A stretch of 64,000 nt of DNA from contig NZ_VORA01000001.1 of the NCBI RefSeq assembly GCF_008477545.1, positions 992,001-1,056,000 on the forward strand, written 5' to 3'. The stretch is from Roseibium aestuarii (GTDB lineage: Bacteria > Pseudomonadota > Alphaproteobacteria > Rhizobiales > Stappiaceae). Below the pieces are notes generated by a model that worked only from the letters and a program-made list of their open reading frames with translations, did no database searches and had not been told where the DNA came from. A program made the position numbers and the translations under genes. Below are positions 743 to 32,504 of the stretch, in pieces. Positions within the stretch are counted from its first letter, which is position 1, and every line of letters starts with the position of its first letter.

Positions 743-922
743 GGCCGGCCGGGCCTTCCGATCCGGTCTGAAACGTGACCGGAATCACGCTTTAAGCATT
801 TTTTCCGAAGCCATTGCGAATTCGCCGCTTTTTGTGGTTGTCTTTTTCGCAGGGAAAGGGGTCTATTTTCCTTGTAGGTCAGGATCCCGTCAGAGGTCCG
901 GCCAAAGGGAGGAGTGCAGCGG

Positions 923-4788: not shown

Positions 4789-4816
4789 AACCAGGGACGG
4801 GGAACGGGGACGCCTA

Positions 4817-5842
4817 ATGCTGGAGTATATCGTGCGGCGGATCATCACCATGATCCCGACGCTCTTCGTGATCAGCTTCCTGATCTTCTTCATCGTGGAG
4901 CTGCCGTCCGGCGATTACATCTCCAACCAGATTGCTGCCCTGCGCTCCTCCGGCGAGGCCTCCGCCGTGGCCAAGCTGGAGTTCCTGCGCGCCGAATTCG
5001 CCCTCGACCGCCCGTTCTTCGAACGCTACCTGATCTGGGTCGGCCTCTGGTCCGGCCCCCACGGCTTCGACGGCCTGCTGCAGGGCAACTGGGGCTGGTC
5101 CTTCGAGTTCAACAAGCCGGTGGAAGCCGTCATCGGTCCGACGCTTCCCCTGACGGTGATCCTGAACTTCGCGACCATCCTCTTCGTCTACATCGTCTCC
5201 TTCCCGATCGGGATCTATTCCGCCACACGGCAATATTCCTGGGGCGACTACGGCTTCACTTTCCTCGGCTATATCGGTCTCGCCACGCCCAACTTCCTCC
5301 TCGGACTGATCCTGCTCTATTTCTTCAATCGCTGGTTCGGGCTGTCGATCGGCGGCCTCATGGACCCGCAATATCTCGACCAGGGCTGGAGCCTCGACAA
5401 GCTGCTCTCGATCCTCGGCCACCTGATCGTGCCGACCATCGTCATCGGCACGGCGGGCACGGCGGCCATGATCCGGCGCCTGCGCGCCAACCTGCTGGAC
5501 GAGCTGCACCGGCAATATGTCACCACCGGCCGCGCCAAAGGCCTGAAGGAAAGCACGCTTCTGGTGAAATACCCCCTGCGCATGGCCCTCAATCCCTTCA
5601 TCTCCGACATCGGCAATCTGATCCCGTCGCTGGTCTCCGGCTCCGTCATCGTCTCGGTGGTGCTGAACCTGCCGACCGTCGGGCCCGTGCTCTTGTCGGC
5701 GCTTCAGAGCCAGGACCAGTTCCTGTCCGGCTTCATCCTGCTCTTCGTGGCGATGCTGACCCTCGTGGGCATGCTGGTCTCCGACCTGCTGCTCGCCATC
5801 CTTGATCCACGCATCCGCCTCGGCGGCAAGGCAAGCGGCTGA
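4817..5842 (+). CDS. ABC transporter permease, DppB/YejB-like
   Basis: First inner-membrane permease subunit of the importer. It begins MLEYIVRRIITMIPTLFVIS, the classic N-terminal membrane helix of the DppB/OppB family, followed by a large periplasmic loop (about residues 30-105) and a block of further helices. The cytoplasmic coupling loop that contacts the ATPase is recognisable around TTGRAKGLKESTLLVKYPLRMALNPFI. At 341 residues it has family length. It follows the intercistronic hairpin and precedes the second permease by 15 bases, so the two are surely co-transcribed. A 20-base GC-rich leader precedes the ATG with a GGGGACG ribosome-binding site. Confidence 0.93.
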   Translation: MLEYIVRRIITMIPTLFVISFLIFFIVELPSGDYISNQIAALRSSGEASAVAKLEFLRAEFALDRPFFERYLIWVGLWSGPHGFDGLLQGNWGWSFEFNKPVEAVIGPTLPLTVILNFATILFVYIVSFPIGIYSATRQYSWGDYGFTFLGYIGLATPNFLLGLILLYFFNRWFGLSIGGLMDPQYLDQGWSLDKLLSILGHLIVPTIVIGTAGTAAMIRRLRANLLDELHRQYVTTGRAKGLKESTLLVKYPLRMALNPFISDIGNLIPSLVSGSVIVSVVLNLPTVGPVLLSALQSQDQFLSGFILLFVAMLTLVGMLVSDLLLAILDPRIRLGGKASG

Positions 5843-5857
5843 GGGGAGGGCAGCAGA

Positions 5858-7024
5858 ATGAGCGACAGTCACGACACCGCCCGGACCCATTACGTCAACC
5901 CGGCCCCCTTCAATCCGGTCGAGGACGAGGTCCTGACCCCGGAGCAGGAACGCTACTATCAGGCCAGCCAGTGGCGGATCATGTGGTGGAAGTTCAAGAG
6001 CCACAAGCTGGCACTCTGGTCGGGCATCGTCCTGATCCTCTTCTACCTTTGCGTTCCCTTTGCCGAGGTGATTGCGCCCTACACGCCCAACCAGCGCAAT
6101 TCCGAGCATCTCTATGCGCCGCCCCAGCCCGTCCATCTCTTCCACGAGGGCAGGCTCGTCGGGCCCTTCGTCTATGGCCAGACCTCCGAGGTCGACATGA
6201 CCGTGATGAAATGGGTGTTCAAGGAAGACCGCACCCAGGTGCAGCCCCTGCGCTTCCTCTGTCTCGGTGATCCTTACGAATTCTGGGGCCTTGTCGAGGC
6301 GCGCTTCCATCTCGTCTGTCCGGCGGAAGGGGGAACGCTCTTCCTGCTCGGCACTGACCGGCTCGGCCGCGACCAGTTCTCCGGTCTGGTCTATGGCGCG
6401 CGCCTGTCCCTCACCGTCGGGCTGGTGGGTGTGGCGATTGCCATCGTGCTCGGCCTCTTCTTCGGCGGCATTGCCGGCTATTTCGGCGGCGTGGCCGACA
6501 GTCTGATCCAGCGGCTCATCGAGATCATGCGCTCGCTGCCCGAGCTGCCCCTGTGGATGGCGCTGTCCGCGGCCCTGCCGGTCACATGGTCGCCGGTGTG
6601 GATCTATTTCGGCATCACCATCATCCTCGGCCTGCTCGACTGGCCGGGTCTGGCGCGCGCCGTGCGCTCCAAGCTCCTCTCCCTGCGCGAAGAGGAATAT
6701 GCCCGCGCCGCCGTGCTGATGGGGGCCAAACCCTCCCGCGTGATCACCCGCCACCTGCTGCCGGGATTCACCAGCCACATCATTGCCAGCGCCACCCTGT
6801 CCATTCCCTCGATGATCCTCGGCGAGACGGCGCTCTCCTTCCTCAATCTGGGGCTGCGGCGTCCCTCCGTTTCCTGGGGCGTTCTCCTGAACGAGGCGCA
6901 GAACATTTCCGTGGTCACGGTCTACCCCTGGCTCATGGCGCCGGTGATCCCCATCATCATCGTGGTGCTGGCGTTCAATTTCCTCGGCGACGGTTTGCGC
7001 GACGCCGCCGATCCCTATAAGTGA
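5858..7024 (+). CDS. ABC transporter permease, DppC/YejE-like
   Basis: Second inner-membrane permease subunit. After a cytoplasmic N-terminal tail of about 45 residues there is one helix (LALWSGIVLILFYLCVPFAE), then a periplasmic insertion of about 90 residues carrying two cysteines (LRFLCLGDPY, FHLVCPAEGG), then LLGTDRLGRDQFSGLVYGARLSL, the hallmark of the DppC family. The coupling loop is around YARAAVLMGAKPSRVITRHLLPGF. The insertion makes it longer (388 residues) than the usual 290-310 and places it with the YejE-like branch. The cysteines could form a periplasmic disulfide. Last gene of the operon; the intergenic space after it carries a paired palindromic repeat. Confidence 0.92.
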   Translation: MSDSHDTARTHYVNPAPFNPVEDEVLTPEQERYYQASQWRIMWWKFKSHKLALWSGIVLILFYLCVPFAEVIAPYTPNQRNSEHLYAPPQPVHLFHEGRLVGPFVYGQTSEVDMTVMKWVFKEDRTQVQPLRFLCLGDPYEFWGLVEARFHLVCPAEGGTLFLLGTDRLGRDQFSGLVYGARLSLTVGLVGVAIAIVLGLFFGGIAGYFGGVADSLIQRLIEIMRSLPELPLWMALSAALPVTWSPVWIYFGITIILGLLDWPGLARAVRSKLLSLREEEYARAAVLMGAKPSRVITRHLLPGFTSHIIASATLSIPSMILGETALSFLNLGLRRPSVSWGVLLNEAQNISVVTVYPWLMAPVIPIIIVVLAFNFLGDGLRDAADPYK

Positions 7025-7075
7025 GGATCAGGGCGCACGAGTCGGAGTGAGCCGCCTTTTCACGGCATTGCCGTT

Positions 7076-7146: not shown

Positions 7147-7220
7147 GCAGGAAGGGTTGACCTTCTCCGCCGGCATCCCACATCCGGGGGCCGCGATCCG
7201 AATGAAGCAAGGACGAACAC

Positions 7221-7814
7221 ATGTCGAAGAACGCCAGTACCGCAGAAGGCTGGGATGAGGAATATGAAGCCGGGCGCTGGGCCTTCCTGCGCTCCCTGCC
7301 CGAGAGCGGGCGCTACGGCATCATCGGCATGTGGCTGAACCTGACCGGCTCCAACGCCGAGGTGCTGGACATCGGCTGCGGCGAAGGCCTGCTCTACGAG
7401 CGCCTCGCCCCCATGGGCCTGACGAAATACGTCGGCATGGACCTGGCCCCGGCCGCCCTCGAGATCGCCAATGTGGATCCGGCCATCGCCTCCCTGCGCG
7501 CCGGCGACATGCACACGTTCGAGCCCCAGGCCGGCGAAACCTTCTCGGCCATCGTCTTCAACGAGGTGCTGCATTTCGCCGAAGATCCGGCTGCAGTCGT
7601 CGCTCGTTACGTGCCCTTCCTGAAGAAGGACGGCGTCATCGCGCTCTCCATGTACAGCCCCAAGCGCCCCGAAAGCGGCGCCAACAAGCTGATCGCCCGG
7701 CTCTGGGAAGCGACCGACGACACGGCGAAGTGGGAAGTCCTCGACGACTACCGTCTGGGCTCCGACAAGAAGGGCGTCACCTGGCGCCTGCGTCTGGTCA
7801 AGCCTGTCGTCTGA
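7221..7814 (+). CDS. Class I SAM-dependent methyltransferase, substrate unknown
   Basis: Transfers a methyl group from S-adenosylmethionine to an unidentified acceptor. Motif I, VLDIGCGEG (about residues 46-54), is the glycine-rich SAM-binding loop; YVGMDLA gives the acidic residue at the end of strand 2; FSAIVFNEVLHFAED matches motifs II and post II. The ending GVTWRLRLVKPVV is the usual terminal strand pair. The 197-residue length is that of a bare Rossmann methyltransferase domain, cytoplasmic, with no targeting signal. It stands alone between a repeat-filled gap and a hairpin that follows its stop. The acceptor cannot be inferred from the neighbours. Confidence 0.85.
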   Translation: MSKNASTAEGWDEEYEAGRWAFLRSLPESGRYGIIGMWLNLTGSNAEVLDIGCGEGLLYERLAPMGLTKYVGMDLAPAALEIANVDPAIASLRAGDMHTFEPQAGETFSAIVFNEVLHFAEDPAAVVARYVPFLKKDGVIALSMYSPKRPESGANKLIARLWEATDDTAKWEVLDDYRLGSDKKGVTWRLRLVKPVV

Positions 7815-20809: not shown

Positions 20810-21583
20810 TCAAGCGCTGAACAAGTCCTTCACCCGCGGCCATTCCGCTCCGGGATGGTGGGCGGCGATGCGCAGGAAGTCCTCAAGAAATTCGTAGCAG
20901 CCCTCGTCATGGGCGAGGTGGTGGGAGAGGATCCCCAGCGGCTCGGACGGGTTGGTGCGGCGGCGGGCCAGCTGCAGGTCGAGGCGCAGGCGGGCGCTGT
21001 TCCAGCCGATGAAGCGCCGGTCCTTCTTCCACTTGATGATGTCCACATGGGACTGCACCTGCGTCAGCCCCGAAAGGTCGCGCGGAAAATGCATCCAGGT
21101 GAAGGTGGAGAGCCCCGTCAGCCCGAGACCGGGCAGGGCGCGCACCACCGACGGTGCGATCCGGTTCCAGGGCGGCACGACGGCGGGAACGAAGCGATCC
21201 CCGAACAGGGCCGCCAGCCGGGTCTTGCCTTGCGCCAGCTGCGGCAGAAGCTCTTGCAGGTCGCGGCGGGAGCCGAGTTCGGCGGCCTTTTCCCCCTTTG
21301 CCTTGTCCTGGAAGTTCCGGTGTTGCCAGCCGTGCTGCAGCACGACCGCGTGGGGCTCGGTGGCCAGCCGGTTCGCCAGCGCGTCGGTCGCATCCCTCGG
21401 GATCACGGCAAGCGCCACATCCACGTCATGGGCATTGGCGAGGGCAAGCAGCCGCTCCAGATGGTCGGTCGGCTCGATGGCGTCATCGTCGCGCCACCAG
21501 AACCGGACCTTCTGGCCCCGCTCGGCGAACCAGTCGAGATGGGCCGTCAGCTCGCGGCGAAACCGGTCGAGATCCTCGCTCAC
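20810..21583 (-). CDS. Polysaccharide-deacetylase-like protein
   Basis: A 257-residue protein with the look of the NodB/CE4-related superfamily: RFWWRDDDAIEPTDHLERLL near the N-terminus carries the paired Asp of the metal site, AVVLQHGWQHRNF carries a HxxxH-like metal motif, and AVVPPWNRIAPSVV matches the family's catalytic PPW/R region. It could deacetylate a glycan made by the neighbouring glycosyltransferases. It starts at GTG 21583, overlapping the upstream gene's stop by four bases (GTGA), so it is translationally coupled. Last gene of the leftward glycosyltransferase run. No signal peptide is visible, so it would act in the cytoplasm. Confidence 0.75.
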   Translation of the reverse strand: MSEDLDRFRRELTAHLDWFAERGQKVRFWWRDDDAIEPTDHLERLLALANAHDVDVALAVIPRDATDALANRLATEPHAVVLQHGWQHRNFQDKAKGEKAAELGSRRDLQELLPQLAQGKTRLAALFGDRFVPAVVPPWNRIAPSVVRALPGLGLTGLSTFTWMHFPRDLSGLTQVQSHVDIIKWKKDRRFIGWNSARLRLDLQLARRRTNPSEPLGILSHHLAHDEGCYEFLEDFLRIAAHHPGAEWPRVKDLFSA

Positions 21584-22734
21584 GCGAAACGCTCCTTCAG
21601 ATCCTGGATCAGGATGTCGGCGGAGGTCTCCGCCCCGCCGAGACGAACCTGGGTCTGCTTGCGCGGCAGGGCAAGGGCCTCGTCGGCGGCCTTCGCCAGT
21701 TTGTCCGGGGTCAGGCCTGCCTCGGCCACCACCACCGCGCGGCCATGGGCGGCGAGGGCCTCCGCGCGCTGGGTCTGCTCGGTCTCCTTCACCTGGGCGA
21801 AGGGCACGAAGACGCAAGGGGTGCCGGCGATCAGCAGGTCGAGCACGGTGTTGTAGCCGGCCTGGCTGACCGAGAGCCGGGCCCGGGTCAGCAGGTCGGG
21901 GAAGTCGGGCCGGGCCCGCTCGACGATCACGCCCTCGGGCGCGCGGGCGCGGAAGGCGGCGAAGGCATCGTCCGCGATGTCATGGCCGACAAGCAGGCGC
22001 CAGGTCGTGTCGCCTGCACGCGTCGAGAGGCTGCGAGCGGCAAGGGCCGCCTCAAGCAGGCCGATCGCGACCGCACCACCGCCGCAGGAGACGATCACCT
22101 CGTCCGTTCCGTCGCTTCCCGCAGAGGCGGCACGGGGCGCGCCACCGACGAAGCCGGTGTAGCGTACCAGATGGTCGATCCGCTCGGCAAAGGGGAAACT
22201 GTCGGACAATTGCACGAAGGCCGGATCCGAATGCACCAGAACCCGGTCGAAGAAGGCGAGTGCGGTGTCGGCCATCCACTCCTCCTTCCAGAGCTCCTGC
22301 TTGCGCACGAGGATGTCGCGGATGGACGTGGCGATGAGGGGCGGACGCGCCCGGTCTTTCGCCACGCGCACCAGCTCGCCCAGCTCGAACTCGAACATGC
22401 GCCGGCCGAAGGGATAGGTTTCCGTCAGCAGCAGGTCATAGTCCTGCGCGGCAAAGGCGTTGAGCGTGGCGGCGACCCGCGCCGCGCGCCAGGCCTCGTC
22501 GATCTCGACACCTTCCGGCGTCACGAGCCGGTTGAAGACCGCATCCGGAGAGCGGACCGGCGGCAGCGACACCACCGTCAGGCCGGAGGTATCCAGCGTG
22601 GGCGGCAACAGGTTGCCGGTCGCCAGCGTCACCTCGACGCCGCGCGCCACCAGGGCCTGCCCGAGGCGTGCCGCACGCACCGCATGGCCGGTGCCCAGCA
22701 GATGCTGGACATGGAGGAAGGCCTTGAAGGTCAT
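21580..22734 (-). CDS. MurG-like glycosyltransferase (GT-B fold, GT28-like)
   Basis: Predicted to transfer a sugar from a nucleotide-sugar donor. The N-terminal half has the loop LLGTGHAVRAARLGQAL, like the GxGH loop of MurG and other GT28 enzymes. The C-terminal half has SCGGGAVAIGLLEAALAA and the donor-binding SQAGYNTVLDLLIAGTPCVFVPF. The length is 384 residues. Its ATG overlaps the upstream GT4 gene's stop by four bases and its own stop overlaps the deacetylase-like gene by four. It resembles the 432-residue protein encoded at 25233-26531 in organisation. The acceptor and product are unknown. Confidence 0.82.
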   Translation of the reverse strand: MTFKAFLHVQHLLGTGHAVRAARLGQALVARGVEVTLATGNLLPPTLDTSGLTVVSLPPVRSPDAVFNRLVTPEGVEIDEAWRAARVAATLNAFAAQDYDLLLTETYPFGRRMFEFELGELVRVAKDRARPPLIATSIRDILVRKQELWKEEWMADTALAFFDRVLVHSDPAFVQLSDSFPFAERIDHLVRYTGFVGGAPRAASAGSDGTDEVIVSCGGGAVAIGLLEAALAARSLSTRAGDTTWRLLVGHDIADDAFAAFRARAPEGVIVERARPDFPDLLTRARLSVSQAGYNTVLDLLIAGTPCVFVPFAQVKETEQTQRAEALAAHGRAVVVAEAGLTPDKLAKAADEALALPRKQTQVRLGGAETSADILIQDLKERFA

Positions 22735-23876
22735 GGCAGCTCCGCGCGATAGGGACGGATGGTCGGCAGCCGCTCCCAGAACTGGTCCTGGGCAGCCTCC
22801 AGGAAGGCGGTGAGACGGGTCGCTCCCGCTTCGAGCGAATGATGATCGCGCATGTGGGCGGCGGCCGCCTGTCCCATGTCGGTGATCGAGGCCGGATCGG
22901 TGAGGGCCGCGCGCAGTTTCAGCGCCAGCGCAAGGGCGTCGCCCTCCGGGGCGAGAAGCCCGGTTTCCCCGTCGCGCACGATGTCCGGCACGCCGAAGCT
23001 GTTGCCGGCCACCACGCCGAGACCGCTCGCCTGGGCTTCCAGGAAGACGAATCCGAAGGCCTCCCGGATGGCGGGCCAGACGAAGAGATCGTGCGTGGCA
23101 TAGACGTCCGGCAGGTCTTCCGGCGGCAGGGCGCCGAGAAACCGCACTCGCTCCGGCGGGAAGAGGGCCTCCACATGGGCACGCGCCGGGCCGTCGCCGA
23201 CGATGGTCAGCTCCCAGGGCAGATCCAGCACATGGGCAAGCGCCTCGGCCAGAACCTCGTAGGAGCGGGCCTTGTCGCCCTCGCGCATCATCGCGACGCT
23301 CAGCAGCCGGACCGGCCGGTGCTCCGCCCCTCGCGGCAGGCTGGCGGCGGGCGCGAAGGGCACGAGATCGAGGAAGGGCAGGAGCACCTGCAGCCGTCGC
23401 GGCGGCAGCACGGCGGCCAGACACTGGGCATCGGCCCGGTGCAGGGCGGCAACCTGGTCGGCGCGGGCAAGGGCGGCATCGGCCGCCGCAAAGCCCGGCG
23501 CCCAGTCGCCCGTCTGGCGCTTGGGCGCGCGGCTGGCCTCGATCACCGCATAGGGAATGCGGAACCGGTCGGCCAGCGCAGGCCCGATCCAGTCCGGCGC
23601 CTTGTGATAGAGATGATAGGTCAGGAACAGGTCCGGCTTGTAGCGCGAGGCCTGCCAGCGGTCGCCGATGCGGTCGGCCTCGGCCAGTGCCGCGGCTTTC
23701 AGATCGGCAAAGCCGGGGGCGCTCGGCGACTTCTGCCAGGCCCGGAACCGGCTGGCGATGCCCACCTTGTGGCCGCCGAGTTCCAGCGCCTGGACGATCA
23801 GCCGTCCCATGGTCCGGTCGCCGGAGGGGATCGGATCATCGAGCGGTTTCATCGGGGCGGTGAAGGCGATCTGCAT
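22731..23876 (-). CDS. Glycosyltransferase family 4 protein
   Basis: GT-B retaining glycosyltransferase. The N-terminal AFTAPMKPLDDPIPSGDRTMGRLIVQAL is an acceptor-domain start; the C-terminal donor domain has RLLSVAMMREGDKARSYEVLAEAL, LTIVGDGPARAHVEAL, and the E-x7-E signature in PAIREAFGFVFLEAQASGLGVVAG. The length of 381 residues is typical. It lies 11 bases after the other GT4 gene and overlaps the MurG-like gene by four bases. The repeated PxDHPxxSGxR-like start is shared with enzymes that modify surface glycans in other alphaproteobacteria, but I cannot name its product. Confidence 0.9.
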   Translation of the reverse strand: MQIAFTAPMKPLDDPIPSGDRTMGRLIVQALELGGHKVGIASRFRAWQKSPSAPGFADLKAAALAEADRIGDRWQASRYKPDLFLTYHLYHKAPDWIGPALADRFRIPYAVIEASRAPKRQTGDWAPGFAAADAALARADQVAALHRADAQCLAAVLPPRRLQVLLPFLDLVPFAPAASLPRGAEHRPVRLLSVAMMREGDKARSYEVLAEALAHVLDLPWELTIVGDGPARAHVEALFPPERVRFLGALPPEDLPDVYATHDLFVWPAIREAFGFVFLEAQASGLGVVAGNSFGVPDIVRDGETGLLAPEGDALALALKLRAALTDPASITDMGQAAAAHMRDHHSLEAGATRLTAFLEAAQDQFWERLPTIRPYRAELP

Positions 23877-23887
23877 CTGCGCGCTCC

Positions 23888-25117
23888 TCAGCGATCCGCG
23901 ACGAAGGGCGCGAATTTCGCCCGCAACATCTCGATGCCCGGATCACAGGCGAAGGCGGCCCGCACATGAGCACTCCCTGCCCGGCCCAGCCGGTCCCGGT
24001 CTGCCGGCGCGGCAATCAGCTCGGCCATGACGCGGGCCAGATCTTCCGGCGCATTGGGGGCGACCATGCGCCCGGTCTCGCCCTCGACGATCAGCTCGGG
24101 AATGGCGGAGACTCGGGTCGACAGGCAGCACAGGCCCATGGACTGCGCCTCCATCAGCACGTTGGGCAGGCCGTCCCGGTCGCCGTCAGGCGTGATCTTG
24201 GAGGGCAGCACGAAGAGATCCGAGCGCCGCAGGGTCTCGATCACCGTCTCGCGCGGCTGGGCCCCGCGCCAGGTGATGCGGTCGCACAGGCCAAGGGCTT
24301 CGGCCTGCGCCTTCAGGCTCTCCGCCAGGTCGCCGCCCCCAACGTGGGTGAAGTGCCAGGACAGATCCTTCGGTAGCAGGGCCAGCGCGTTCAGCAGGTC
24401 GCCATAGCCCTTCTTCGGCACGGCGCGCCCCACCGAGACGAGACGCACCGGATCTCCGGACCCGTCGCGGGTCTGCGGCGCAGGATCGGGCAGGGGGAAG
24501 CCGGAAAAGTCCAGCCCGTGATAGACCAGTTCCACCTTGTCCGGATCGCGGCACAGGCTCTTGAGATGCTGCGCGTTGACGCCCGTGCAGGTGACGCCCC
24601 AGGCGGCATCGTCGAGCTTGGTGCGCAGATCCCATTCGGGGCTGGTCCAGATGTCCTTGGCATGGGCCGAGAAGGACCACTTCAACCCGGCCAGATGCGC
24701 GCCGTAGCGGGCGGCCGAGCAGGGTGTGTGCAGGAAATGGGTGTGGATCCAGGTGATGTCTTCGGGCAGCTCATGCGCCAGAACCATGCCCTGCGCCCAG
24801 CGGCGCTGACGCCCGGCATTGGGTTCGCGGGCAAAGTCCGCGTCGAACAGGGCCTTCGCGGCCGCATAGGTCGGCTGTTGCTGCGCCCAGCGGCGGGCCC
24901 GCGCCACCCGCGCCGGGTCATCCTTCACATACTCGGGAAGATAGAGGACCTCGGCCGAGATCTGCCGGTGCAGCTCGTGGATGAAGGGATCATAGGGCTT
25001 GCGCAGCGCCACGATCAGGATCGGGATCCCGAGCCGCTCCAGCCCGAGGATTTCCTGGGCGATGAAGGTTTCCGAAAGGCGGGGATAGCCTTTGACCACG
25101 ACGGCGATGCGGGACAT
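23888..25117 (-). CDS. Glycosyltransferase family 4 protein
   Basis: Second GT4 enzyme of the run, 409 residues. It opens with VVVKGYPRLSETFIAQEILGLERLG, the GYPxxSETFI motif common in exopolysaccharide GT4 enzymes. The donor domain has RLVSVGRAVPKKGYGDLLNAL (the Lys-containing phosphate loop) and LPSKITPDGDRDGLPNVLMEAQSMGLCCLST, with the ExE-like signature region (GLPNVLMEA). Its stop is 11 bases from the next GT4 gene. It starts 115 bases downstream of the 432-residue GT gene, so the five leftward genes are probably one transcript. Confidence 0.92.
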   Translation of the reverse strand: MSRIAVVVKGYPRLSETFIAQEILGLERLGIPILIVALRKPYDPFIHELHRQISAEVLYLPEYVKDDPARVARARRWAQQQPTYAAAKALFDADFAREPNAGRQRRWAQGMVLAHELPEDITWIHTHFLHTPCSAARYGAHLAGLKWSFSAHAKDIWTSPEWDLRTKLDDAAWGVTCTGVNAQHLKSLCRDPDKVELVYHGLDFSGFPLPDPAPQTRDGSGDPVRLVSVGRAVPKKGYGDLLNALALLPKDLSWHFTHVGGGDLAESLKAQAEALGLCDRITWRGAQPRETVIETLRRSDLFVLPSKITPDGDRDGLPNVLMEAQSMGLCCLSTRVSAIPELIVEGETGRMVAPNAPEDLARVMAELIAAPADRDRLGRAGSAHVRAAFACDPGIEMLRAKFAPFVADR

Positions 25118-25232
25118 GTGTTCGGGACTTTGTCGAGGGAAAAGTGGGTCGAGGGAAAGGTGGGTCGAGGAGACGGGTGATCGAAACAGGGCGCAGGCCT
25201 CGCCGCAGACGGAGATCCGCCAGGGCGAAGCC

Positions 25233-26531
25233 TCAGAAGTTGACGGCTTCCGGTTCGGCCGGCTGGCCCGTTTCCTCCGCCAGGGCCTGACGGGGCGCCT
25301 CCGACCGGTCGGTGTCGAAGCTCAGTACACCATCGGGCCGCAGCACCGGGCGAGCATCGAGGATCTCGTGCACCCGGGTCCGCACTAGATCCAGCCCGCG
25401 CAGCAGGTTTTCCACCCCTGCGGCGGAGGGACGGGGCTGATCGGGCAGCTCGGACAGGGCATCGGCCATGCGCACCGGATCCGGATAATAATCGATCGGC
25501 AGCACCTTCAGCAGGCCGGAGTCCTCTGCCCGCGCGGCGCGGATGGCCTGCTCGCGGCGGGGAACGACGCGCGGCACCATCAGGGTCGGCTTGTCGAAGG
25601 ACAGGATCTCGCAGAACGTGTTGTAGCCGCCCATGGCGACGATCGCCATGGCATTGGCCAGATAGGGCTCGATCTGCGGCGTGAAGCGGATAATCTCGAC
25701 ATCCGGCAGATGCTGGGCCCGCTCGGTGAATTCGGCAACGCTGGCTGCCGGCATGAAGGGACCGAGAATGATCAGCGCCGGGAACAGGGCGTGACGGCGA
25801 CTCTCATAGGCGCTCATCACCCAGTCGACCATCTCGACGCCGTCGCCCCCGCCGCCCGGAGTGACCAGAATGTAGGGCATGCCGTCGAACGGGCGCGGGG
25901 AGGGGATCTTTTCGGCGCCGTGCGGCAGGTCGCGTCGCAGATAGCCGGTGTAGCGCAGCTTCTCCGAGATGCCCTCGGGCATGTTCACCCCTTCGAGCGG
26001 GTTGCACAGGCCCTCCGGCCCGTAGACCCAGATCTCGTCGTAGAGGTCCTGGAGGGCCGGATAGACATTCTTCCGGTCCCATTCCTTCTGCAGGATCTCC
26101 GCGTCGTCCATCACGTCGCGCAGGCCCAGGACCAGACGGGTGTGGGTGCCCTTCAGAGCCTCGAGCGTCGGCAGAACCTCGCCGCGCAGGCCCAGCGGCT
26201 CCTTGTCGACGATGAAGATGTCCGGTTCGAAGACCTTGGCGGTGTGCTCGATGATGGAGGAGCGGATCGCCAGCGTATGATCGATGTTCAGGCGCAGGGA
26301 AAGCGGCGTGTATTCGCCGTTGCGCAGCTTGATCACGCCGGGAATGCGGACGAAATCCACGCGCGAGCGGAACTCGAAACTGCCGATGATCGGCGAGCCG
26401 GAAAGGATCAGGACAGACATGTCCTCGAATTCGCCCACGAGCGAATGCGCGATGGCCCGGCACCGGCGAAGGTGGCCAAGACCAAAGGAATCATGGCTGT
26501 AGATCAGGATCTTGGGCGGCTGAGAGCGCAT
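25233..26531 (-). CDS. MurG-like glycosyltransferase-family protein, first gene of the leftward run
   Basis: A 432-residue GT-B protein. The start PKILIYSHDSFGLGHLRRCRAIAHSLV has the GxGHxxR loop of GT28 enzymes; the C-terminal half has YILVTPGGGGDGVEMVDWVM and VAMGGYNTFCEILSFDKPTLMVPRVVPRREQAIRA, the donor-binding segment. A tail of about 50 residues rich in Pro, Glu and Arg follows. It is divergent from the ABC protein gene across 413 bases. A related protein is encoded at the far end of the same run, suggesting ancient duplication. The sugar donor is not deducible. Confidence 0.85.
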   Translation of the reverse strand: MRSQPPKILIYSHDSFGLGHLRRCRAIAHSLVGEFEDMSVLILSGSPIIGSFEFRSRVDFVRIPGVIKLRNGEYTPLSLRLNIDHTLAIRSSIIEHTAKVFEPDIFIVDKEPLGLRGEVLPTLEALKGTHTRLVLGLRDVMDDAEILQKEWDRKNVYPALQDLYDEIWVYGPEGLCNPLEGVNMPEGISEKLRYTGYLRRDLPHGAEKIPSPRPFDGMPYILVTPGGGGDGVEMVDWVMSAYESRRHALFPALIILGPFMPAASVAEFTERAQHLPDVEIIRFTPQIEPYLANAMAIVAMGGYNTFCEILSFDKPTLMVPRVVPRREQAIRAARAEDSGLLKVLPIDYYPDPVRMADALSELPDQPRPSAAGVENLLRGLDLVRTRVHEILDARPVLRPDGVLSFDTDRSEAPRQALAEETGQPAEPEAVNF

Positions 26532-26944
26532 GCGTCCCCGTGAGTTGGCTTGCCCGTCACTAGAGCTTGTAATCTGCAGGCGGCCGTCTTGCGTCAGGCG
26601 TGTCGACCGGGGATGTCGGTTCGGCGCATGCAGCCTGCGGACTGCTCTGGGGACACCGGATACCGTTGGCCAACAATATGCTGACGCCGGGACAAGTGCA
26701 AGAAGTCACGATCCGGCTTGCCGGCCGCCGCTCCCGTGCTCCCCAGACTGTTGTCAACATGAGCGTTATCGACATGTGTTTTGGCAACGTGCTACGCGGG
26801 CAGCAGTCCGAGGGCGCACAGGCGCAAGCCATGCGCTCGGATGGACGGGTCGCCGCAGGGGAAGGGGCGGAGATCAAGACGGTTACAGCGCCCGGAGACC
26901 TGTGCTATGGAGCAAGGGTGCAGCCGGGGACCTGGGGCGAGGGA
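26532..26944. other. Divergent promoter region between the glycosyltransferase and ABC/cyclase runs
   Basis: This 413-base gap must carry promoters for both directions. I saw no palindromic repeat of the family found elsewhere and no convincing dyad. An in-frame open stretch continues upstream of the ABC gene to 26600, but it lacks family-like sequence and a ribosome-binding site, so I treat it as non-coding. Confidence 0.45.
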
Positions 26945-29554
26945 ATGGAAAAAAGCCTGTTTCGCTTTATCTGGCGCTATAGTGCTCGACAGCAGATCTA
27001 TATCCTTCTGATCACGGTCCTGATCTACCCGATCAGCTACGTGCTGCTCGAGTTGCCCAAGCTCATTGTCAACGACGCCGTTCAGGGCGAGGATTTCCCA
27101 AAGGAAATCTGGAGTTTCGAGTTCGACCAGATTTCCTATCTGGTGGTGCTCTGCGTCAGCTTCCTGGTGCTCGTCGTCCTCTCCAACGGCCTGAAGCTCT
27201 ATCTCAACGTCTACAAGGGCCGGCTCGGCGAGCGCATGCTGCGCCGCCTGCGCTTCGAGCTGTTTCAGCGGGTGCTGCGCTTCCGTCTGCCCCATTTCCG
27301 CAAGATCAGCTCCGGCGAGATCATTCCGATGATCACCTCCGAGGTGGAGGATGTGGGCGGCTTCATCGGCGAGGCCATCGCGCTGCCGGCCCTTCAGGGC
27401 GGCATGCTGGTCGTCCAGCTCGGCTTCATCTTCATGCAGGACCCGCTTCTGGGCCTTGCCGCCATCTCGTCCTACCCCATTCAGGGCTATGTGATCCCCA
27501 AGCTCCAGCGCAAGGTCGTCCTGCTCAGCCGTGAGCGGGTGAAGAACGTGCGCACCATCGCCGACAAGGTGGGCGAAAGCATCACCGGCGTCGCCGAGAT
27601 CCATGCCAATGACACCTCGGCCTGGCATTCGAGTGACCTGTCGGAGCGTCTCTACCAGAATTTCAAGATCCGCTACGAGATCTTCAATCGGAAGTATTTC
27701 ATCAAGTTCCTCAATAACTTCATGAACCAGCTGACGCCGTTCTTCTTCTACCTGATCGGCGGCTATCTGGTGATCGAGGGGGACCTGAGCATCGGCGCCC
27801 TTCTGGCGGTGATCGCGGCCTACAAGGATCTGGCCGGTCCCTGGAAGGAACTGCTGGCCTATTACCAGCTCGTCGCCGACGTGGACGTGAAGTACCAGAC
27901 CGTGGTCGAGAACTTCGACCCGGCCGACATCTACCCGGTCGAGCGCCTGATCGCCGACGACAAGGTGACCCTCGAAGGCGACCTGGTCATGAAGAATGTC
28001 AGCTTCTCCGGCGGTGCGGCCGGTCAGGAAGTGAGCGACATCTCCCTGACCGTGCCGAGCGGAACCGCTTGCGCCATCATCGGTCCGGACGGCTCGGGCC
28101 GATCCGAGGTGCTGCAGCTTGCAGCAGGTCTCGTCAGTCCCGTCGCCGGCCGGGTGGAAATCGGCGGCAGGGATCTGGAGGATCTGACCGCCGCGACGCT
28201 GGGCCGCGAGATCGCTTATGTGGGCGGCGCGGTTCATATCTGGACCGGCACCATCCGCGACAACCTCTTCTACGGCCTGCGCCATCGGCCGGTGGGCGAA
28301 GTCCTGCGTGAGGGGGAGGCGGCTGCCGAGTATCAGCGCTGGCAGGCGGAAGCGCGCGAGACCCGCAACCTCGCCTATGACCTGACCGCCTCGTGGGAAG
28401 ATCTGGCTGCGGCCGGGGTCGAAGACGAGATTGCCCTGAATGCGCGGGCCATGGCCCTGCTCAAGGCCGTGCGTCTGGAGGCCGATGTCTACCGGCTGGG
28501 CCTGCAGTCCCGCCTTGATCCGAGCCGCAATCCCACCCTGCGCCAGTCCGACTTCGGCGCCCGAATCCTGGCGGTGCGTCAGGCCCTGTCCAAGCGCATC
28601 GCCTCCGATCCCAAGCTCTCCGGCCTCACCGAACTGTGGCATGCGGAGCGGTTCAACAATTCCGCCTCCCTGGCGGAAAATCTGTTCTTTGCCGTGCCCA
28701 CCGACCCGGACCTGACCCTGGAAAGCGTGCAGAGCCTGCCGGAGGTCCGCACCTTCCTGAAGGACAGCGGCCTGGACGAGCGGCTGCAGGCCATCGGCCA
28801 GAAGATCGCCGAAACCATGGTCGAGCTCTTTGCCAATGTCAGCGGCGAGAGCGGGCTGCTCAACACCTATTCGTTCCTGACGAGGGACGAGCTGCCCGAC
28901 TACGAGCGCATTCTACGTCTGGCCCGCTCCACCAATCCGCGTGCCGGCCTGACCGATGCGGACCGGCTGCGGCTCATCGGTCTGGCCTTCAAGCTGGTGC
29001 CCGCCCGTCATCGTCTGGGCGTGATGGACGACGAGATGCGCCAGGAAATCGTGGAGGCCCGCGCCCGGTTCCTCAAGGACGTGGTCGCGCGCTCCAGCCA
29101 GTTCGAGGCCTTCGACCCCAAGGTCTATCTGCCTTCGCTCACCATCGAGGACAACCTGCTCTTCGGCCGGGCCCGTGTGGACCGCCGCGACGCCCGTCAG
29201 CGCATCGACGCGGTGATCGGGTCGATGGTGGAGGAAAGCGGCCTGCGCGAACCCATCGCCTTCGCCGGCTTCGACTATCACGTGGGCGTCTCCGGCTCCC
29301 GGCTTTCGGCCGGTCAGCGCCGCCGCCTGGCCGTGGTACGCGCCCTTCTCAAGAACGCCCGCATCACCATTCTGGACGACATCGCCACCGGCCTCGGCGA
29401 CGAGGAAAAGGCGGCCCGGGCGAAGCTGCGCGAGCTGGCCGGCGGACGCACCCTGCTCTTTGGGGCGTCGCATTCCGCCGTCGGCGACGAATTCGACCAG
29501 AAAATTATTCTGGATCAAGGCCGTATCCTCGAAGATGCGGAAATGGGAGCTTGA
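26945..29554 (+). CDS. ABC exporter-like protein with degenerate, interrupted ATPase domain
   Basis: A fused membrane-ATPase protein of 869 residues. Residues about 1-330 are a type I exporter membrane domain (LLITVLIYPISYVLLELP, then LVVLCVSFLVLVVLSNGL; GRLGERMLRRLRFELFQRVL is the usual cytoplasmic helix). The ATPase domain starts near 345 but is odd. Walker A reads GPDGSGRS (Arg for the essential Lys, near 378-385), the Q-loop Gln is replaced (YVGGAVHIWTGTIRDN), about 290 extra residues follow, then LSAGQRRR (near 789), Walker B ILDDI (Asp for catalytic Glu) and SH in the H-loop. ATG 26945 follows GAGGG. Head of the rightward run; probably works with the glycosyltransferases. ATP hydrolysis may be weak or lost. 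Confidence 0.88.
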   Translation: MEKSLFRFIWRYSARQQIYILLITVLIYPISYVLLELPKLIVNDAVQGEDFPKEIWSFEFDQISYLVVLCVSFLVLVVLSNGLKLYLNVYKGRLGERMLRRLRFELFQRVLRFRLPHFRKISSGEIIPMITSEVEDVGGFIGEAIALPALQGGMLVVQLGFIFMQDPLLGLAAISSYPIQGYVIPKLQRKVVLLSRERVKNVRTIADKVGESITGVAEIHANDTSAWHSSDLSERLYQNFKIRYEIFNRKYFIKFLNNFMNQLTPFFFYLIGGYLVIEGDLSIGALLAVIAAYKDLAGPWKELLAYYQLVADVDVKYQTVVENFDPADIYPVERLIADDKVTLEGDLVMKNVSFSGGAAGQEVSDISLTVPSGTACAIIGPDGSGRSEVLQLAAGLVSPVAGRVEIGGRDLEDLTAATLGREIAYVGGAVHIWTGTIRDNLFYGLRHRPVGEVLREGEAAAEYQRWQAEARETRNLAYDLTASWEDLAAAGVEDEIALNARAMALLKAVRLEADVYRLGLQSRLDPSRNPTLRQSDFGARILAVRQALSKRIASDPKLSGLTELWHAERFNNSASLAENLFFAVPTDPDLTLESVQSLPEVRTFLKDSGLDERLQAIGQKIAETMVELFANVSGESGLLNTYSFLTRDELPDYERILRLARSTNPRAGLTDADRLRLIGLAFKLVPARHRLGVMDDEMRQEIVEARARFLKDVVARSSQFEAFDPKVYLPSLTIEDNLLFGRARVDRRDARQRIDAVIGSMVEESGLREPIAFAGFDYHVGVSGSRLSAGQRRRLAVVRALLKNARITILDDIATGLGDEEKAARAKLRELAGGRTLLFGASHSAVGDEFDQKIILDQGRILEDAEMGA

Positions 29555-29664
29555 GCCCATGCAGCTGAGGTGCTTTGCTGCAGGCCTGGGAAGAGACGGA
29601 CCACCGGCGAGGGCGGTGCAACCGGATCTCCGGCATGTCGGGGTCACCCGCAAGGAGGTATGAG

Positions 29665-30120
29665 GTGTCTTTGGAAAACGAGGTCGAGGTCCTGCGCAAG
29701 GTGCCTCTGTTCCGCGGGATCGATGAAACCAAGCTGCGGCTTCTGGCGTTCATTTCCGACAGGATGGAATTCCAGGAAGGGGAGCGGCTCTGCACGCAAG
29801 GGGAAGAAGGCGACAGTGCCTTCATCATTCTTCGGGGCGCGGCCGACGTTCTCGTCGAGACACCGGACGGAGAGCGCAAGGTCGCCGACGTGAAGGAAAA
29901 CTCGATTGTCGGTGAAATCGCGATTCTCTGTGACGTGCCGCGCACGGCCACGCTGATCGCCTCGACTCGCATGGACGTGCTCACCGTGTCGAAGGACGAC
30001 TTCCTCAAGCTTCTGAAGGAATTTCCTGATATTGCTCTCGAGGTCATGCGGACCCTGGCCCTGCGCCTGGAACGCACGACGCGAGATCTCGCCGCGGCCC
30101 GCTCCGTGGCAGCAGATTAG
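29665..30120 (+). CDS. Stand-alone cyclic-nucleotide-binding domain protein
   Basis: A 151-residue protein made of one cNMP-binding fold (CRP/PKA-regulatory type) and a short C-terminal helix, with no DNA-binding domain. The phosphate-binding cassette VGEIAILCDVPRTATLIAS has the key Glu and Arg (about E84 and R93), as in real cAMP binders. It should act as a cytoplasmic sensor subunit for a partner protein. The start is GTG 29665 because a perfect AAGGAGGT lies five bases upstream (29652-29659). It sits between the ABC protein gene (110 bases) and the MBL gene (a few bases), with a cyclase gene close by, which makes the ABC protein its most likely partner. Confidence 0.93.
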   Translation: MSLENEVEVLRKVPLFRGIDETKLRLLAFISDRMEFQEGERLCTQGEEGDSAFIILRGAADVLVETPDGERKVADVKENSIVGEIAILCDVPRTATLIASTRMDVLTVSKDDFLKLLKEFPDIALEVMRTLALRLERTTRDLAAARSVAAD

Positions 30121-30132
30121 GGAGAATTGGTC

Positions 30133-30957
30133 TTGTCTTCAGAGTTCTCGCTCCGCATCTGGGGCGCGCGCGGTTCCACCCCGGCCCCCGGCGCAAGCAC
30201 CCTGCGCTACGGCGGGGAGACGACCTGCTTCGAACTGCGCGCCGGAGACGAGATCGTTCTCATCGATTGCGGCTCGGGAGCGCGCAATCTCGGGGTCGAC
30301 CTGTGCCAGCAGGGCCCCCGGAAGGTGAACCTGCTCTTCACCCACACCCATCTCGATCACATCTGCGGGCTGCCCTTCTTCAAGCCGGCCTATGACCCCC
30401 GCTTCGAGGTCACCGCCTGGGCGGGCCACTTCGATCACGAGACCTGCCTCGTCGACATCATCAGCCGGATCATGTCGCCGCCGATCTTCCCCGTGGCCGC
30501 CAAGACGCTGAAGGCCGTCACCTTCCGCTCCTTCCGCGCCGGAGAGAACCTGCCCTGCGCCGGCGATCTGGCGATCCGCACCGTGGCGCTGAACCATCCG
30601 GGCGGCGCCTGCGGCTATCGCTTCGACTTCAAGGGCAAGTCCATCTGCATCATCACCGATCATGAACATGGCGTTCCGGAGATCGACGCGGGCGTGGCCG
30701 CCTTCGTGCAGGATGCGGACATCATGATCTATGATGCCATGTTCACCGACGAGGAATACGAGACCTATCGCGGCTGGGGCCATTCCACGTGGCAGAAGGC
30801 CGTCGAGCTGGCGCGCGCCTCCAATGTCCGTATTCCGGTGATCTTCCACCACGATCCCCGCCGCACCGACGATGCGCTGGACGAGATCGGTCTGGCCGTG
30901 GCCGAAGCCTGTCCGGGGGCCATCATCGCCAGGGAAGGCATGCTGCTCACCCCCTGA
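30133..30957 (+). CDS. MBL-fold metallohydrolase, possible phosphodiesterase
   Basis: Binuclear-metal hydrolase of the metallo-beta-lactamase fold. The hallmark HTHLDH is at about 71-76; further ligands are suggested by ALNHPGG, IITDHEHG and FHHDPRRTDD. The opening LRIWGARGSTPAPGASTLRYGGETTCFEL is typical of a subgroup (PhnP/phosphodiesterase-like) that includes enzymes hydrolysing cyclic phosphodiesters, so degradation of the local cyclic nucleotide is plausible but unproven. I place the start at TTG 30133, seven bases after GGGAGA; TTG 30127 is too close. It follows the cNMP-binding gene by 12 bases and precedes the cyclase gene. Confidence 0.87.
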   Translation: MSSEFSLRIWGARGSTPAPGASTLRYGGETTCFELRAGDEIVLIDCGSGARNLGVDLCQQGPRKVNLLFTHTHLDHICGLPFFKPAYDPRFEVTAWAGHFDHETCLVDIISRIMSPPIFPVAAKTLKAVTFRSFRAGENLPCAGDLAIRTVALNHPGGACGYRFDFKGKSICIITDHEHGVPEIDAGVAAFVQDADIMIYDAMFTDEEYETYRGWGHSTWQKAVELARASNVRIPVIFHHDPRRTDDALDEIGLAVAEACPGAIIAREGMLLTP

Positions 30958-31006
30958 GCCGATCCGGATCCTGACCCTCCCGCAGGCGGCCAGACCGGTT
31001 TCGGCT

Positions 31007-31025
31007 GACGTTCCTGAGGAACGTC
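31007..31025. promoter_or_regulatory. Inverted repeat upstream of the membrane cyclase gene
   Basis: GACGTTCC-TGA-GGAACGTC is a perfect eight-base inverted repeat with a three-base centre, 70 bases upstream of the cyclase ATG and 50 after the MBL stop. No T run follows. It could be an operator or an mRNA hairpin. Confidence 0.4.
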
Positions 31026-31094
31026 CGATCACGCTTCCGTCAGCGGCCGGCCCCATGGCTTGCGTCCGCGTGTCCGCCGTGCTCACGTCTGGTC

Positions 31095-32504
31095 ATGAGT
31101 TCCCACGATCCCCTTGCCGAAGCCGCAGTTCACGGGCCTGACACGCCCGCGCCTGCCGTTCTTGCGTCTTCTGGTCCTGCGTCGTCGCGGGCAGCGAAAG
31201 GGCTGGAGGCTTTGCCGCCCCGCGTGCTGCGCCAGATCCGCCTGTCCGAACTCCAGTCCGAGCGGCTGATCGGCTGGGTGCAGCTGGCCATCGTTCTCTT
31301 CTTCACGACGCTTTACTCCATCGCCCCCCGGGCGGAGGGCAGCTCGGGCTTCAATTTCGTGCCCCTGGCACTCGGCGCCTATTTTCTCTTCACCCTGATC
31401 CGGCTCGTCCTGTCCTACCGGATCAAGCTGCCGGACTGGTATCTCTTCCTGTCCATCGGCGTCGACGTGGCCTTGCTGGTGGGGCTGATCTTCTCCTTCC
31501 ACATCCAGTATGGCCAACCGCCGACCTTCTATTTGAAGACCCCGACGCTGATGTATGTCTTCATCTTCATCGTCCTGCGTGCCCTGCGCTTCGACCTGCG
31601 CTTCGTCGCGGTCACCGGGCTGGTGGCGGTCACCGGCTGGCTGGGGCTCGTCGCCTATGCGGTCGGGGCACAGATGGGCGCCATGCGCATCACCCGCAAT
31701 TACGTCGAGTATCTCACCGGCAACACGATCCTGATCGGGGCGGAGATCGACAAGGTCATGGTGATCCTGACCGTGACCGGCATTCTCTGTGCCGTGCTCT
31801 ACCGGGGCCGCGCCCTGCTGCTGGCCTCCGCCCAGGACCATGCGGCCGCCGCCGATCTCTCCCGCTTCTTCGATCCGGCGGTCGCCCGCTCCATCACCGG
31901 TTCGGCCGAGGATCTCGCCCCCGGGCGGGGCGACCTCAGAACCGCCTCGATCCTCTGCGTCGATCTGCGCAGCTTCACCGCGACGGCAGCAACTCTCGAT
32001 CCCGACAAGGTCATGGCGGTGCTGGCCGTCTATCAGCGGCTGGCGGTCGGGATCATCGAGGCGGCAGGCGGGCAGGTCGACAAGTTCCTCGGCGACGGGA
32101 TTCTGGCGACCTTCGGCGCGGTGGTGCCATCGCCCACCCATGCGGCCGATGCCCTGCGCGCCGCGCAAGGCATCTGTCGCGCGGTGCGGCAGGAGCAGGA
32201 AGGCTTCGCGCAGGCCGGCTGGCCGGGCGTCCTGCGGGCAGGGGCGGCGGTCGCCTCGGGCCCCGTCACCGTGGGCACGGTGGGGACGGGCGCGCGGCTC
32301 GAATTCACCGTGATTGGCAATGCGGTCAACCGGGCGGCCAAGCTCGAGGATGCCAACAAGGCCCAGGCCAGCAACGCCCTGACGGACGCTGGAACGCTCG
32401 CGCTCGCCCGCACGCAAGGCTTTGACGCAGAGGATCTCGAAAAAAGACCCGGACAGTCGGTCGAGGGACTGTCCGGGCCGGTCGATCTGGTGGTGCTGGC
32501 CTGA
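31095..32504 (+). CDS. Membrane-anchored class III nucleotide cyclase
   Basis: The 469-residue protein has a cytoplasmic N-terminus, about six membrane helices (residues about 58-245: LIGWVQLAIVLFFTTLYS, LSIGVDVALLVGLIFSF, PTLMYVFIFIVLRAL, VTGLVAVTGWLGLVAYA and others) and a C-terminal cyclase domain. Metal Asp D290 (CVDLRSFT) and D334, with Lys 330 in DKFLGDG, are present. The transition-state pair is N412 but Lys 416 where Arg is usual (VNRAAKLE). This variant occurs in other alphaproteobacterial cyclases, so activity is likely but not certain. It closes the rightward run and could supply the ligand for the cNMP-binding protein. No strong ribosome-binding site precedes the ATG. Confidence 0.92.
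   Translation: MSSHDPLAEAAVHGPDTPAPAVLASSGPASSRAAKGLEALPPRVLRQIRLSELQSERLIGWVQLAIVLFFTTLYSIAPRAEGSSGFNFVPLALGAYFLFTLIRLVLSYRIKLPDWYLFLSIGVDVALLVGLIFSFHIQYGQPPTFYLKTPTLMYVFIFIVLRALRFDLRFVAVTGLVAVTGWLGLVAYAVGAQMGAMRITRNYVEYLTGNTILIGAEIDKVMVILTVTGILCAVLYRGRALLLASAQDHAAAADLSRFFDPAVARSITGSAEDLAPGRGDLRTASILCVDLRSFTATAATLDPDKVMAVLAVYQRLAVGIIEAAGGQVDKFLGDGILATFGAVVPSPTHAADALRAAQGICRAVRQEQEGFAQAGWPGVLRAGAAVASGPVTVGTVGTGARLEFTVIGNAVNRAAKLEDANKAQASNALTDAGTLALARTQGFDAEDLEKRPGQSVEGLSGPVDLVVLA

Follow-up and report, generated by a model that had tools for sequence, protein, structure and literature searches.

The 64,000-nucleotide stretch of Roseibium aestuarii DNA analysed here (the window; contig NZ_VORA01000001.1, forward-strand positions 992,001 to 1,056,000) contains two divergent gene runs between 20810 and 32504. 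An initial annotation, made from the letters, had taken these for a glycan synthesis and export module controlled by a cyclic nucleotide (cNMP). All nine genes it named are present, with the content, order and strands it gave, and they are listed below with the labels used in the text.

20810..21583, minus strand: PDA, NodB/polysaccharide-deacetylase-like hydrolase (Pfam PF01522, 17.4 bits, below the cut-off of 23.1)
21580..22734, minus strand: GT28b, MurG/GT28-type glycosyltransferase (PF04101, 48 bits)
22731..23876, minus strand: GT4b, GT4 glycosyltransferase (PF00534, 97 bits)
23888..25117, minus strand: GT4a, GT4 glycosyltransferase (PF00534, 108 bits)
25233..26531, minus strand: GT28a, MJ1255-type (GT28-like) glycosyltransferase (PF04101, 28.6 bits)
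26532..26944: divergent intergenic region of 413 bp between the two runs
26945..29554, plus strand: ABC, exporter-type membrane domain and degenerate nucleotide-binding domain (NBD) with a ~300-residue insert (PF00664, 67.9 bits; PF00005, 71.3 bits in two stretches)
28082..28105, plus strand: Walker A segment of ABC, GPDGSGRS (Lys to Arg)
28283..29167, plus strand: insert within the ABC NBD, two repeats ending ENLxFG/DNLLFG (95-sequence alignment; hhalign)
29665..30120, plus strand: CNB, free-standing cyclic-nucleotide-binding domain (PF00027, 71.8 bits)
30127..30957, plus strand: MBL, MBL-fold hydrolase, RNase Z-like (PF12706, 63.6 bits)
31095..32504, plus strand: CYC, membrane-anchored class III nucleotide cyclase (PF00211, 26.2 bits)

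PDA overlaps GT28b, and GT28b overlaps GT4b, by 4 bases each. The third overlap that had been claimed, of 11 bases, is a gap of that size between GT4b and GT4a, and 115 bases separate GT4a from GT28a. The rightward gaps are 110 (ABC/CNB), 6 (CNB/MBL) and 137 bases (MBL/CYC), where several starts were possible for both CNB and MBL and the GTG used for CNB was picked by eye. Despite the sub-cut-off Pfam score, the catalytic DDD and H-x3-H/HH residues of PDA are kept in 80/80 aligned rows.

The ABC protein and its cyclic-nucleotide-binding partner

The ABC protein (869 residues) is 68–75% identical in the best segments to its Roseibium and Stappia counterparts. Its membrane domain is of the exporter type (PF00664, against a cut-off of 28), with P-gp and MsbA as relatives in the PDB, and the best NCBIfam match is MsbA (TIGR02203, 178.2 bits, below the equivalog cut-off of 602). 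Pfam found only the ABC_membrane and ABC_tran domains in the protein, and no C39 peptidase domain. In the NBD, the Walker A Lys is replaced by Arg and ~300 extra residues are present.

These changes are not confined to the window. Five canonical NBD features of established meaning were scored across 95 aligned proteins: Walker A, Walker B, signature, catalytic Glu and H-loop. At the Walker A Lys position, 59 proteins have Lys and 31 have Arg; at the next position, where Ser or Thr is normal, 36 have Asp, 35 Glu and 8 Ser/Thr. The Walker B Asp position holds Asp in 17, Asn in 46 and Ser in 21, while the catalytic Glu is kept in 49, an LSxGQ-type signature in 3 and the H-loop His in 31. No protein keeps all five features and 89 keep two or fewer; one member (L013) keeps four. 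The window protein is a milder case: Arg stands in place of the Walker A Lys and Asp in place of the catalytic Glu, and both the Walker B Asp and a signature of the LSxGQ type are present. At the other end are nine rhizobial-type proteins, from Sinorhizobium meliloti, two Rhizobium, Phyllobacterium and five further genomes of the window's order (L237, L240, L241, L243, L226-L229, L232). In all of these, three residues are missing at once, namely the Walker A Lys, the Walker B Asp and the catalytic Glu: the alignment shows Ala or Gly in place of the Walker A Lys, and a Walker B of FN or LN with Gln or Arg next to it.

Two repeats make up the insert (hhalign: 48 columns, E 6.4e-16, probability 98.6), and both close with a motif that resembles the one after a normal Q-loop. 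The three motif Asn positions hold Asn in 94, 95 and 95 of the 95 proteins. The invariant columns of the family lie mostly in the membrane domain. The description of the protein as exporter-like stands as far as the fold is concerned, but a canonical ATP-driven pump is doubtful because the NBD motifs are degenerate.

The CNB protein scores well above the PF00027 cut-off of 27.5, and Pfam and hydropathy analysis showed a single domain with no TIR domain and no hydrophobic stretch. The intact Glu and Arg noticed in its phosphate-binding cassette turn out to be family traits: in 94 aligned rows, Gly is kept in 94, Glu in 88 and Arg in 94. The cassette is also intact in all four of the nine rhizobial-type sets that were inspected.

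In 156 of 170 deduplicated loci, CNB is found 0.3–2.2 kb downstream of the insert, either fused to ABC or as a gene of its own. The fused form is a single open reading frame (ORF) of ~1,000–1,190 residues with CNB on the C-terminal side. It occurs in 15 loci, including Thalassospira L183 and L185, which after deduplication is 14 of the 157 loci that could be scored. The cassette was inspected in 12 fused proteins, a set that leaves aside L084, L085 and L144: it is present in 8 and divergent in L092, and L089, L090 and L181 gave no match to the simple cassette pattern. L089, L090 and L092 are three paralogous fusions in a single genome (G154), with more divergent NBDs, and tblastn found none of the set's glycosyltransferase genes within ~9 kb of them.

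The adjacency and the single-ORF fusions point to CNB acting on the ABC protein, so that the gating of one by the other proposed in the initial annotation is likely. As read from the alignments, the ABC family has largely lost its canonical ATPase residues while the ligand sensor has stayed intact. cAMP is a plausible ligand for CNB.

Conservation of the neighbourhood and linkage of the cyclase and hydrolase

A probe covering residues 455-790 of the ABC protein, the region holding the unusual insert, matches 98 of 289 sampled genomes of the class (73 of 224 genera). It matches 19 of 249 genomes sampled across the phylum, all 19 being the window's own, of the same order or of the same class. 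GT28a is found in 93 of the 289 class genomes (E up to 1e-40). The two occur together in 91, with ABC alone in 7 and GT28a alone in 2, showing that the arrangement is not due to chance. The corresponding Fisher p of 7e-64 is not a strict probability, since the genomes are related.

At 100 loci outside the window's genome, searched by tblastn with a permissive cut-off, CNB was found in 93, GT28a in 66 (62 at ≥150 bits), GT4a in 66, GT4b in 65, GT28b in 57 and PDA in 47; many of these loci reach contig ends, and some GT28a and GT28b matches are cross-matches. One of the 100 (L091) gave no tblastn match to the insert. The most frequent layout is that of the window, PDA-GT28b-GT4b-GT4a-GT28a leftward and ABC-CNB rightward. 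Among the best 80 of 550 relatives, which supplied the named loci and partly overlap the other sampled genomes, GT28a is present at ≥300 bits in 64 and CNB in 78. The linkage therefore reaches far beyond close relatives. Among the loci examined, however, all nine genes in the window's arrangement occur only in Stappiaceae/Rhodobiaceae-type relatives, and elsewhere MBL and the cyclase are farther off, replaced or absent.

The cyclase was correctly described as a membrane protein. Its class III catalytic domain stands behind a membrane domain with five hydrophobic stretches at residues 58-230 (simple hydropathy scan), and a sixth stretch lies inside the catalytic domain. In 34 orthologue rows, the two metal-binding Asp residues, D290 and D334, are each kept in 33, K330 in 29, T405 in 33 and N412 in 32. 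A base-selecting Lys/Thr pair follows the adenylate-type rule, and K330 and T405 make an adenylate cyclase more likely than a guanylate cyclase. The membrane domain (N-terminal half of 31095-32504) is strongly conserved, and Pfam gave no named sensor domain in it; it may read a membrane signal.

The His/Asp positions inspected in MBL are intact in 42/42 proteins. The match to the cyclic-nucleotide phosphodiesterase model NF041851 (37.2 bits) is below the equivalog cut-off of 400, and the best NCBIfam match, RNase Z, is also below its cut-off. From the fold and the neighbourhood, it is plausible that MBL hydrolyses a cyclic-nucleotide signal.

In 12 loci from Stappiaceae, Breoghania and Rhodobiaceae/Tepidamorphus (L106-L117), MBL directly follows CNB in 12/12 and a cyclase orthologue lies 2.8–4.5 kb from the insert in 9/12. 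The orthologue is absent from the L106 and L116 stretches, and the class III cyclase of L117 is a different one, encoded on the opposite strand. We had at one point placed MBL and the cyclase outside the conserved set, and dropped this when both were found 14–26 kb away in many genomes. This was seen in 33 composite neighbourhoods, a biased sample chosen for having MBL and/or the cyclase known on the contig, of which G033, with a distant glycosyltransferase block, shows neither. Of the 33, 28 have MBL, which in 24 lies on the ABC strand 15–26 kb upstream of that gene; 19 have the cyclase, which in 16 lies on the same strand 14–21 kb upstream. Yej-type genes are present in 28–33 of the 33, at median positions from 14 to 10 kb upstream. 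A histidine-phosphatase-like gene, recognized by eye, lies near GT28b/GT4b in 33/33. A response-regulator gene (OmpR type by eye) is in the neighbourhood of 26/33 (upstream parts, L186-L217), and it stays beside MBL and the cyclase in G135 and G236, both without the ABC gene.

ABC and a cyclase orthologue (≥236 bits) are both present in 47 genomes. They are within 30 kb of each other in 20, on the same strand in 19 of these; in 4 they share a single contig but are far apart (≥0.2 Mb even if circular), and in 23, mostly drafts, they are on different contigs. Thus, they are within 30 kb in 20 of 24 single-contig genomes, the window included. Short contigs bias this distance toward closeness, hence the subset on contigs >500 kb, where the figure is 9 of 13. 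MBL and the cyclase are within 4 kb of each other in at least 30 of 43 cases. Rearranged loci stay linked: the position is downstream and inverted in L048, directly after CNB in L157 (cyclase) and L169 (MBL), and beside the glycosyltransferase block in L170. Non-orthologous class III cyclases lie near ABC-CNB in L036, L053, L087, L161, L022 and L045.

These traits were placed on a FastTree phylogeny of the ABC membrane domain (171 deduplicated rows, being 170 loci and the window). GT28a proximity (84 yes, 31 no, 55 not scorable) needs 9 changes, cyclase adjacency (16 yes, 121 no, 33 not scorable) at least 9, and MBL adjacency (16 yes, 132 no, 22 not scorable) 3.

A YejFABE-type operon, a peptide-family ABC importer, lies ~14 kb from PDA in the window (914-7024, plus strand) and is a member of the same conserved cluster as the nine genes. 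Bit scores are from tblastn; for YejF, the match is to the conserved cluster member.

914..2806, plus strand: YejF-type dual ATPase (727 bits)
2824..4734, plus strand: YejA-type substrate-binding protein (600 bits)
4817..5842, plus strand: YejB-type permease (446 bits)
5858..7024, plus strand: YejE-type permease (535 bits)

The YejF-type ATPase scores 592.6 bits against NCBIfam GsiA (cut-off 1077) and 509.6 bits against YejF (cut-off 834); both are below cut-off, so its exact name is given by resemblance. A SAM methyltransferase gene follows the operon (whole stretch 914-7814). In many relatives, members of the importer family are found between the cyclase and the glycosyltransferase genes. 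Immediately 3′ of the cyclase is a gene for an MltB-type lytic transglycosylase (32523-33710). Among 180 loci, a homologue was found elsewhere in L106 only, 8.4 kb from the insert, and the gene is probably outside the module.

Rhizobial versions and the S. meliloti polysaccharide cluster

In four genomes of the same order (L226-L229, 6.1–6.5 Mb), GT28a-GT4a-GT28b, ABC, CNB and MBL, then PDA and GT4b, lie within ~10 kb, with a different cyclase 7–8 kb downstream. Of 72,556 plasmid records, 254 match the insert, mostly from Rhizobium (144) and Sinorhizobium (80). Plasmids of R. leguminosarum 248 and R. etli IE4771 carry cyclase-YejF-YejA-YejB-YejE-GT28a-GT4a-GT28b-ABC-CNB on one strand with small gaps, the cyclase being non-orthologous. 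Phyllobacterium also has cyclase, Yej, glycosyltransferase, ABC and CNB genes on one strand, with a polysaccharide lyase gene and an opposite toxin-antitoxin pair between the cyclase and yejF. A Methylobacterium radiotolerans plasmid holds an ABC relative with none of the set's other genes annotated directly beside it.

On pSymB of S. meliloti, all nine roles are found in one 22-kb stretch. The cyclase is non-orthologous and resembles that of the window in the catalytic domain only (27%, 38 bits); identities to the counterparts are 38% for PDA, 41% for GT28b and 45% for GT4b (269 bits), and the PDA homologue of strain R14 is annotated as a polysaccharide deacetylase. Beside the S. meliloti MBL gene is one for a DUF3095 protein (L239:18727-19929); ADIVNST and FGGDGA in its sequence look by eye like cyclase motifs, and it may be a degenerate relative of the class III cyclases. 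The R14 GT28a homologue (L239:30373-31538) is in two pieces in different frames and a single piece in 1021 and 2011, indicating a frameshift or a sequencing error.

Locus tags were mapped by gene order from the annotated R14, the records of 1021, 2011 and Rm41 being without gene tables here. R14 has PIG-L deacetylase, DegT aminotransferase and sulfotransferase genes consecutively, in the same order as SMb21247 (GlcNAc-type deacetylase), SMb21248 (aminotransferase) and SMb21249 (sulfotransferase) (PMC5498481). Counting on from there, it is highly probable that GT4b is SMb21252, GT28b is SMb21265, ABC is approximately SMb21267 and CNB approximately SMb21268. Nine genes between smb21252 and smb21271 have been assigned to a provisional surface polysaccharide, the phazolicin-protecting polysaccharide (PPP). 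Transposon insertions in PPP genes were depleted under phazolicin (Tn-seq), and mutants of smb21252 and smb21265, both putative glycosyltransferase genes, were strongly reduced in phazolicin resistance (PMC10128002). Homology, and the probable identification of this locus with the PPP cluster by gene order, make it likely that the leftward run makes a glycan, as first proposed. A cAMP-dependent regulator, Clr, activates genes of the adjacent polysaccharide cluster, perhaps indirectly (PMC5498481).

A described system with this gene set had not been recognized in the initial annotation. That needs qualifying, as the S. meliloti version has been partly studied genetically, but cyclic-nucleotide control at the ABC protein is not described in the accessible parts of that work. 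A literature search, mostly of open-access texts, did not find the gene set described as a cyclic-nucleotide-controlled system.

Interpretation and comparison with known systems

The locus looks like part of a widespread, little-studied alphaproteobacterial system building a protective surface glycan. We favour, with moderate confidence, an envelope-glycan module under cyclic-nucleotide control. In such a module, the four glycosyltransferases and the deacetylase would assemble a glycan, probably while it is attached to a membrane lipid. The exporter-fold ABC protein would partner the cNMP-binding protein, with which, to judge from the sequences, it forms one polypeptide in some lineages. The membrane class III cyclase would make the ligand, more likely as an adenylate than a guanylate cyclase. 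The ligand-bound sensor would then switch the ABC protein, which would let the glycan, or the lipid that carries it, cross the inner membrane. The switch might be ligand binding instead of ATP turnover, because the ATPase site is degenerate. Ending of the signal by the MBL enzyme is a more tentative element, which we place somewhat short of probable. By analogy with the PPP polysaccharide, the glycan could be a barrier against peptides.

Several observations weigh against this reading. The degenerate NBD argues against a normal exporter, and the transition-state Arg position of the cyclase is Lys in 29/34 orthologues. GT28a is absent within 10 kb in 31 of 115 loci with full flanks, and the ABC gene is absent in 7 of 54 genomes with a cyclase orthologue. 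The ABC-CNB fusion needs one change on the ABC tree and may be a single event. The PPP mapping is by gene order only, and the nine PPP genes may not include ABC and CNB. The S. meliloti 1021 record (L237, 12566-15275) splits the ABC gene between two reading frames, one matching residues 1-136 and the other 135-903, whereas strains 2011, Rm41 and R14 have it unbroken. Since 1021 is the strain of the PPP work, either the record is in error or the barrier needs no intact ABC protein, and our confidence was lowered on this account. Finally, HetC, a tested ABC exporter with a cNMP-type domain, binds ppGpp and not cAMP (PMC10986499).

A pseudo-ABC, that is, an exporter scaffold without ATP hydrolysis that is opened or closed by its cNMP-binding subunit and controls the passage of a surface glycan or glycolipid, is a doubtful reading. 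Unlikely too, though to be taken seriously, is that the protein flips a glycolipid in the ordinary ATP-driven way, either tolerating its changed motifs or having as partner a second, intact ABC half-transporter encoded elsewhere; CNB would then do no more than tune it. The exporter fold, MsbA as the best NCBIfam match, the four motifs of L013 and the Walker B Asp and signature of the window protein would all fit a flippase, and there are known heterodimeric exporters in which one site is degenerate. Against it are the 89 of 95 proteins with two or fewer features, the nine rhizobial-type members in which all three of the NBD residues named above are missing, and the finding of no second exporter gene among 15 recurrent neighbour families examined.

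Another unlikely explanation is that the glycan genes and ABC-CNB form one module to which the cyclase and MBL are bystanders, the sensor binding another ligand such as ppGpp or cGMP. A Thr follows the cassette Arg in 83/94 CNB rows, as is common in cGMP sites, and the best PDB matches of CNB are one apicomplexan protein and then cGMP-dependent kinases. The cyclase genomes without ABC and the 4 of 24 single-contig genomes with the two genes far apart point the same way, as does the ppGpp precedent of HetC (PMC10986499). However, cyclases, orthologous or not, are repeatedly re-linked after rearrangement, and the Glu and Arg of a cyclic-phosphate site are retained.

We consider it distinctly unlikely that the ABC protein transports nothing and serves as a scaffold on which the glycosyltransferases are brought together at the membrane in a ligand-dependent way, with export by another, Wzx/Wza-type system. 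The degenerate NBD and the broken 1021 frame would suit such a role, and the R14 locus adjoins lipopolysaccharide-biosynthesis and polysaccharide-export genes. On the other hand, no genes of these two kinds are listed in the annotated 29-kb Rhizobium and Phyllobacterium stretches (their gene tables are incomplete), and most of the invariant family columns are in the membrane domain. A Pycsar-like anti-phage system of cyclase and cNMP-binding effector can be dismissed as highly improbable: PADLOC PycC (79 bits) and PycTIR (62.5 bits) matched generic cyclase and CNB domains, whereas CNB is a single domain without a TIR or transmembrane effector part, the linkage to glycan genes is family-wide, and the cyclase base residues are of the adenylate type.

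If the favoured module is correct, second-messenger control of bacterial surfaces would act not through transcription alone (Clr/CRP) but also directly, by switching an ABC protein at the protein level. It would reach about a third of the sampled alphaproteobacterial genomes (98/289), with relatives in plant symbionts, and the S. meliloti PPP cluster would gain a candidate regulator. A natural ABC-fold family without a canonical ATPase site would also make ligand gating of the exporter fold testable.

Of the named systems, the PPP cluster is homologous by gene order: GT4b, PDA, MBL, cyclase, YejFABE, GT28a, GT4a, GT28b, ABC and CNB are all there, and its glycosyltransferase mutants show a barrier phenotype (PMC10128002). 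It differs in its non-orthologous cyclase, in extra DUF3095, nucleotide-sugar dehydrogenase and methyltransferase genes, and in being rearranged and adjoining a sulfotransferase-containing polysaccharide cluster, as well as in the broken ABC frame of the 1021 record. The accessible part of the PPP account (PMC10128002) makes no mention of CNB or of a degenerate ABC protein. The msbA2 operon (SMb21188-21191) is similar in combining glycosyltransferases with an MsbA-like exporter for a polysaccharide of unknown identity, and msbA2 removal is harmful only with the upstream glycosyltransferases intact (PMC12239276). Its transcription is ChvI-controlled, and no CNB or cyclase is mentioned in the accessible texts. 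We had suspected that the S. meliloti ABC gene is msbA2 (SMb21191), and rejected this on position, msbA2 being at 938 kb (PMC3687685) and the ABC gene at 841.7–844.4 kb (strain 2011). Another MsbA homologue, SMb20813 (PMC10945364), is set apart from the ABC gene only by the order-based mapping, which gives a different tag. HetC of Nostoc is likewise an ABC exporter that depends on a cNMP-type domain for its function; that domain is N-terminal, and HetC also has a C39 peptidase, a required ATPase residue and ppGpp binding (PMC10986499). The module described here, by contrast, has its cNMP domain as a separate protein or on the C-terminal side, lacks a peptidase and carries degenerate ATPase motifs. 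Flippases of lipid-linked glycans of the MsbA/PglK type share membrane-domain homology and a glycosyltransferase context, the latter known for PglK from the Pgl system, but here the NBD motifs are degenerate, a 300-residue repeat insert is present and the partner is a cNMP-binding protein.

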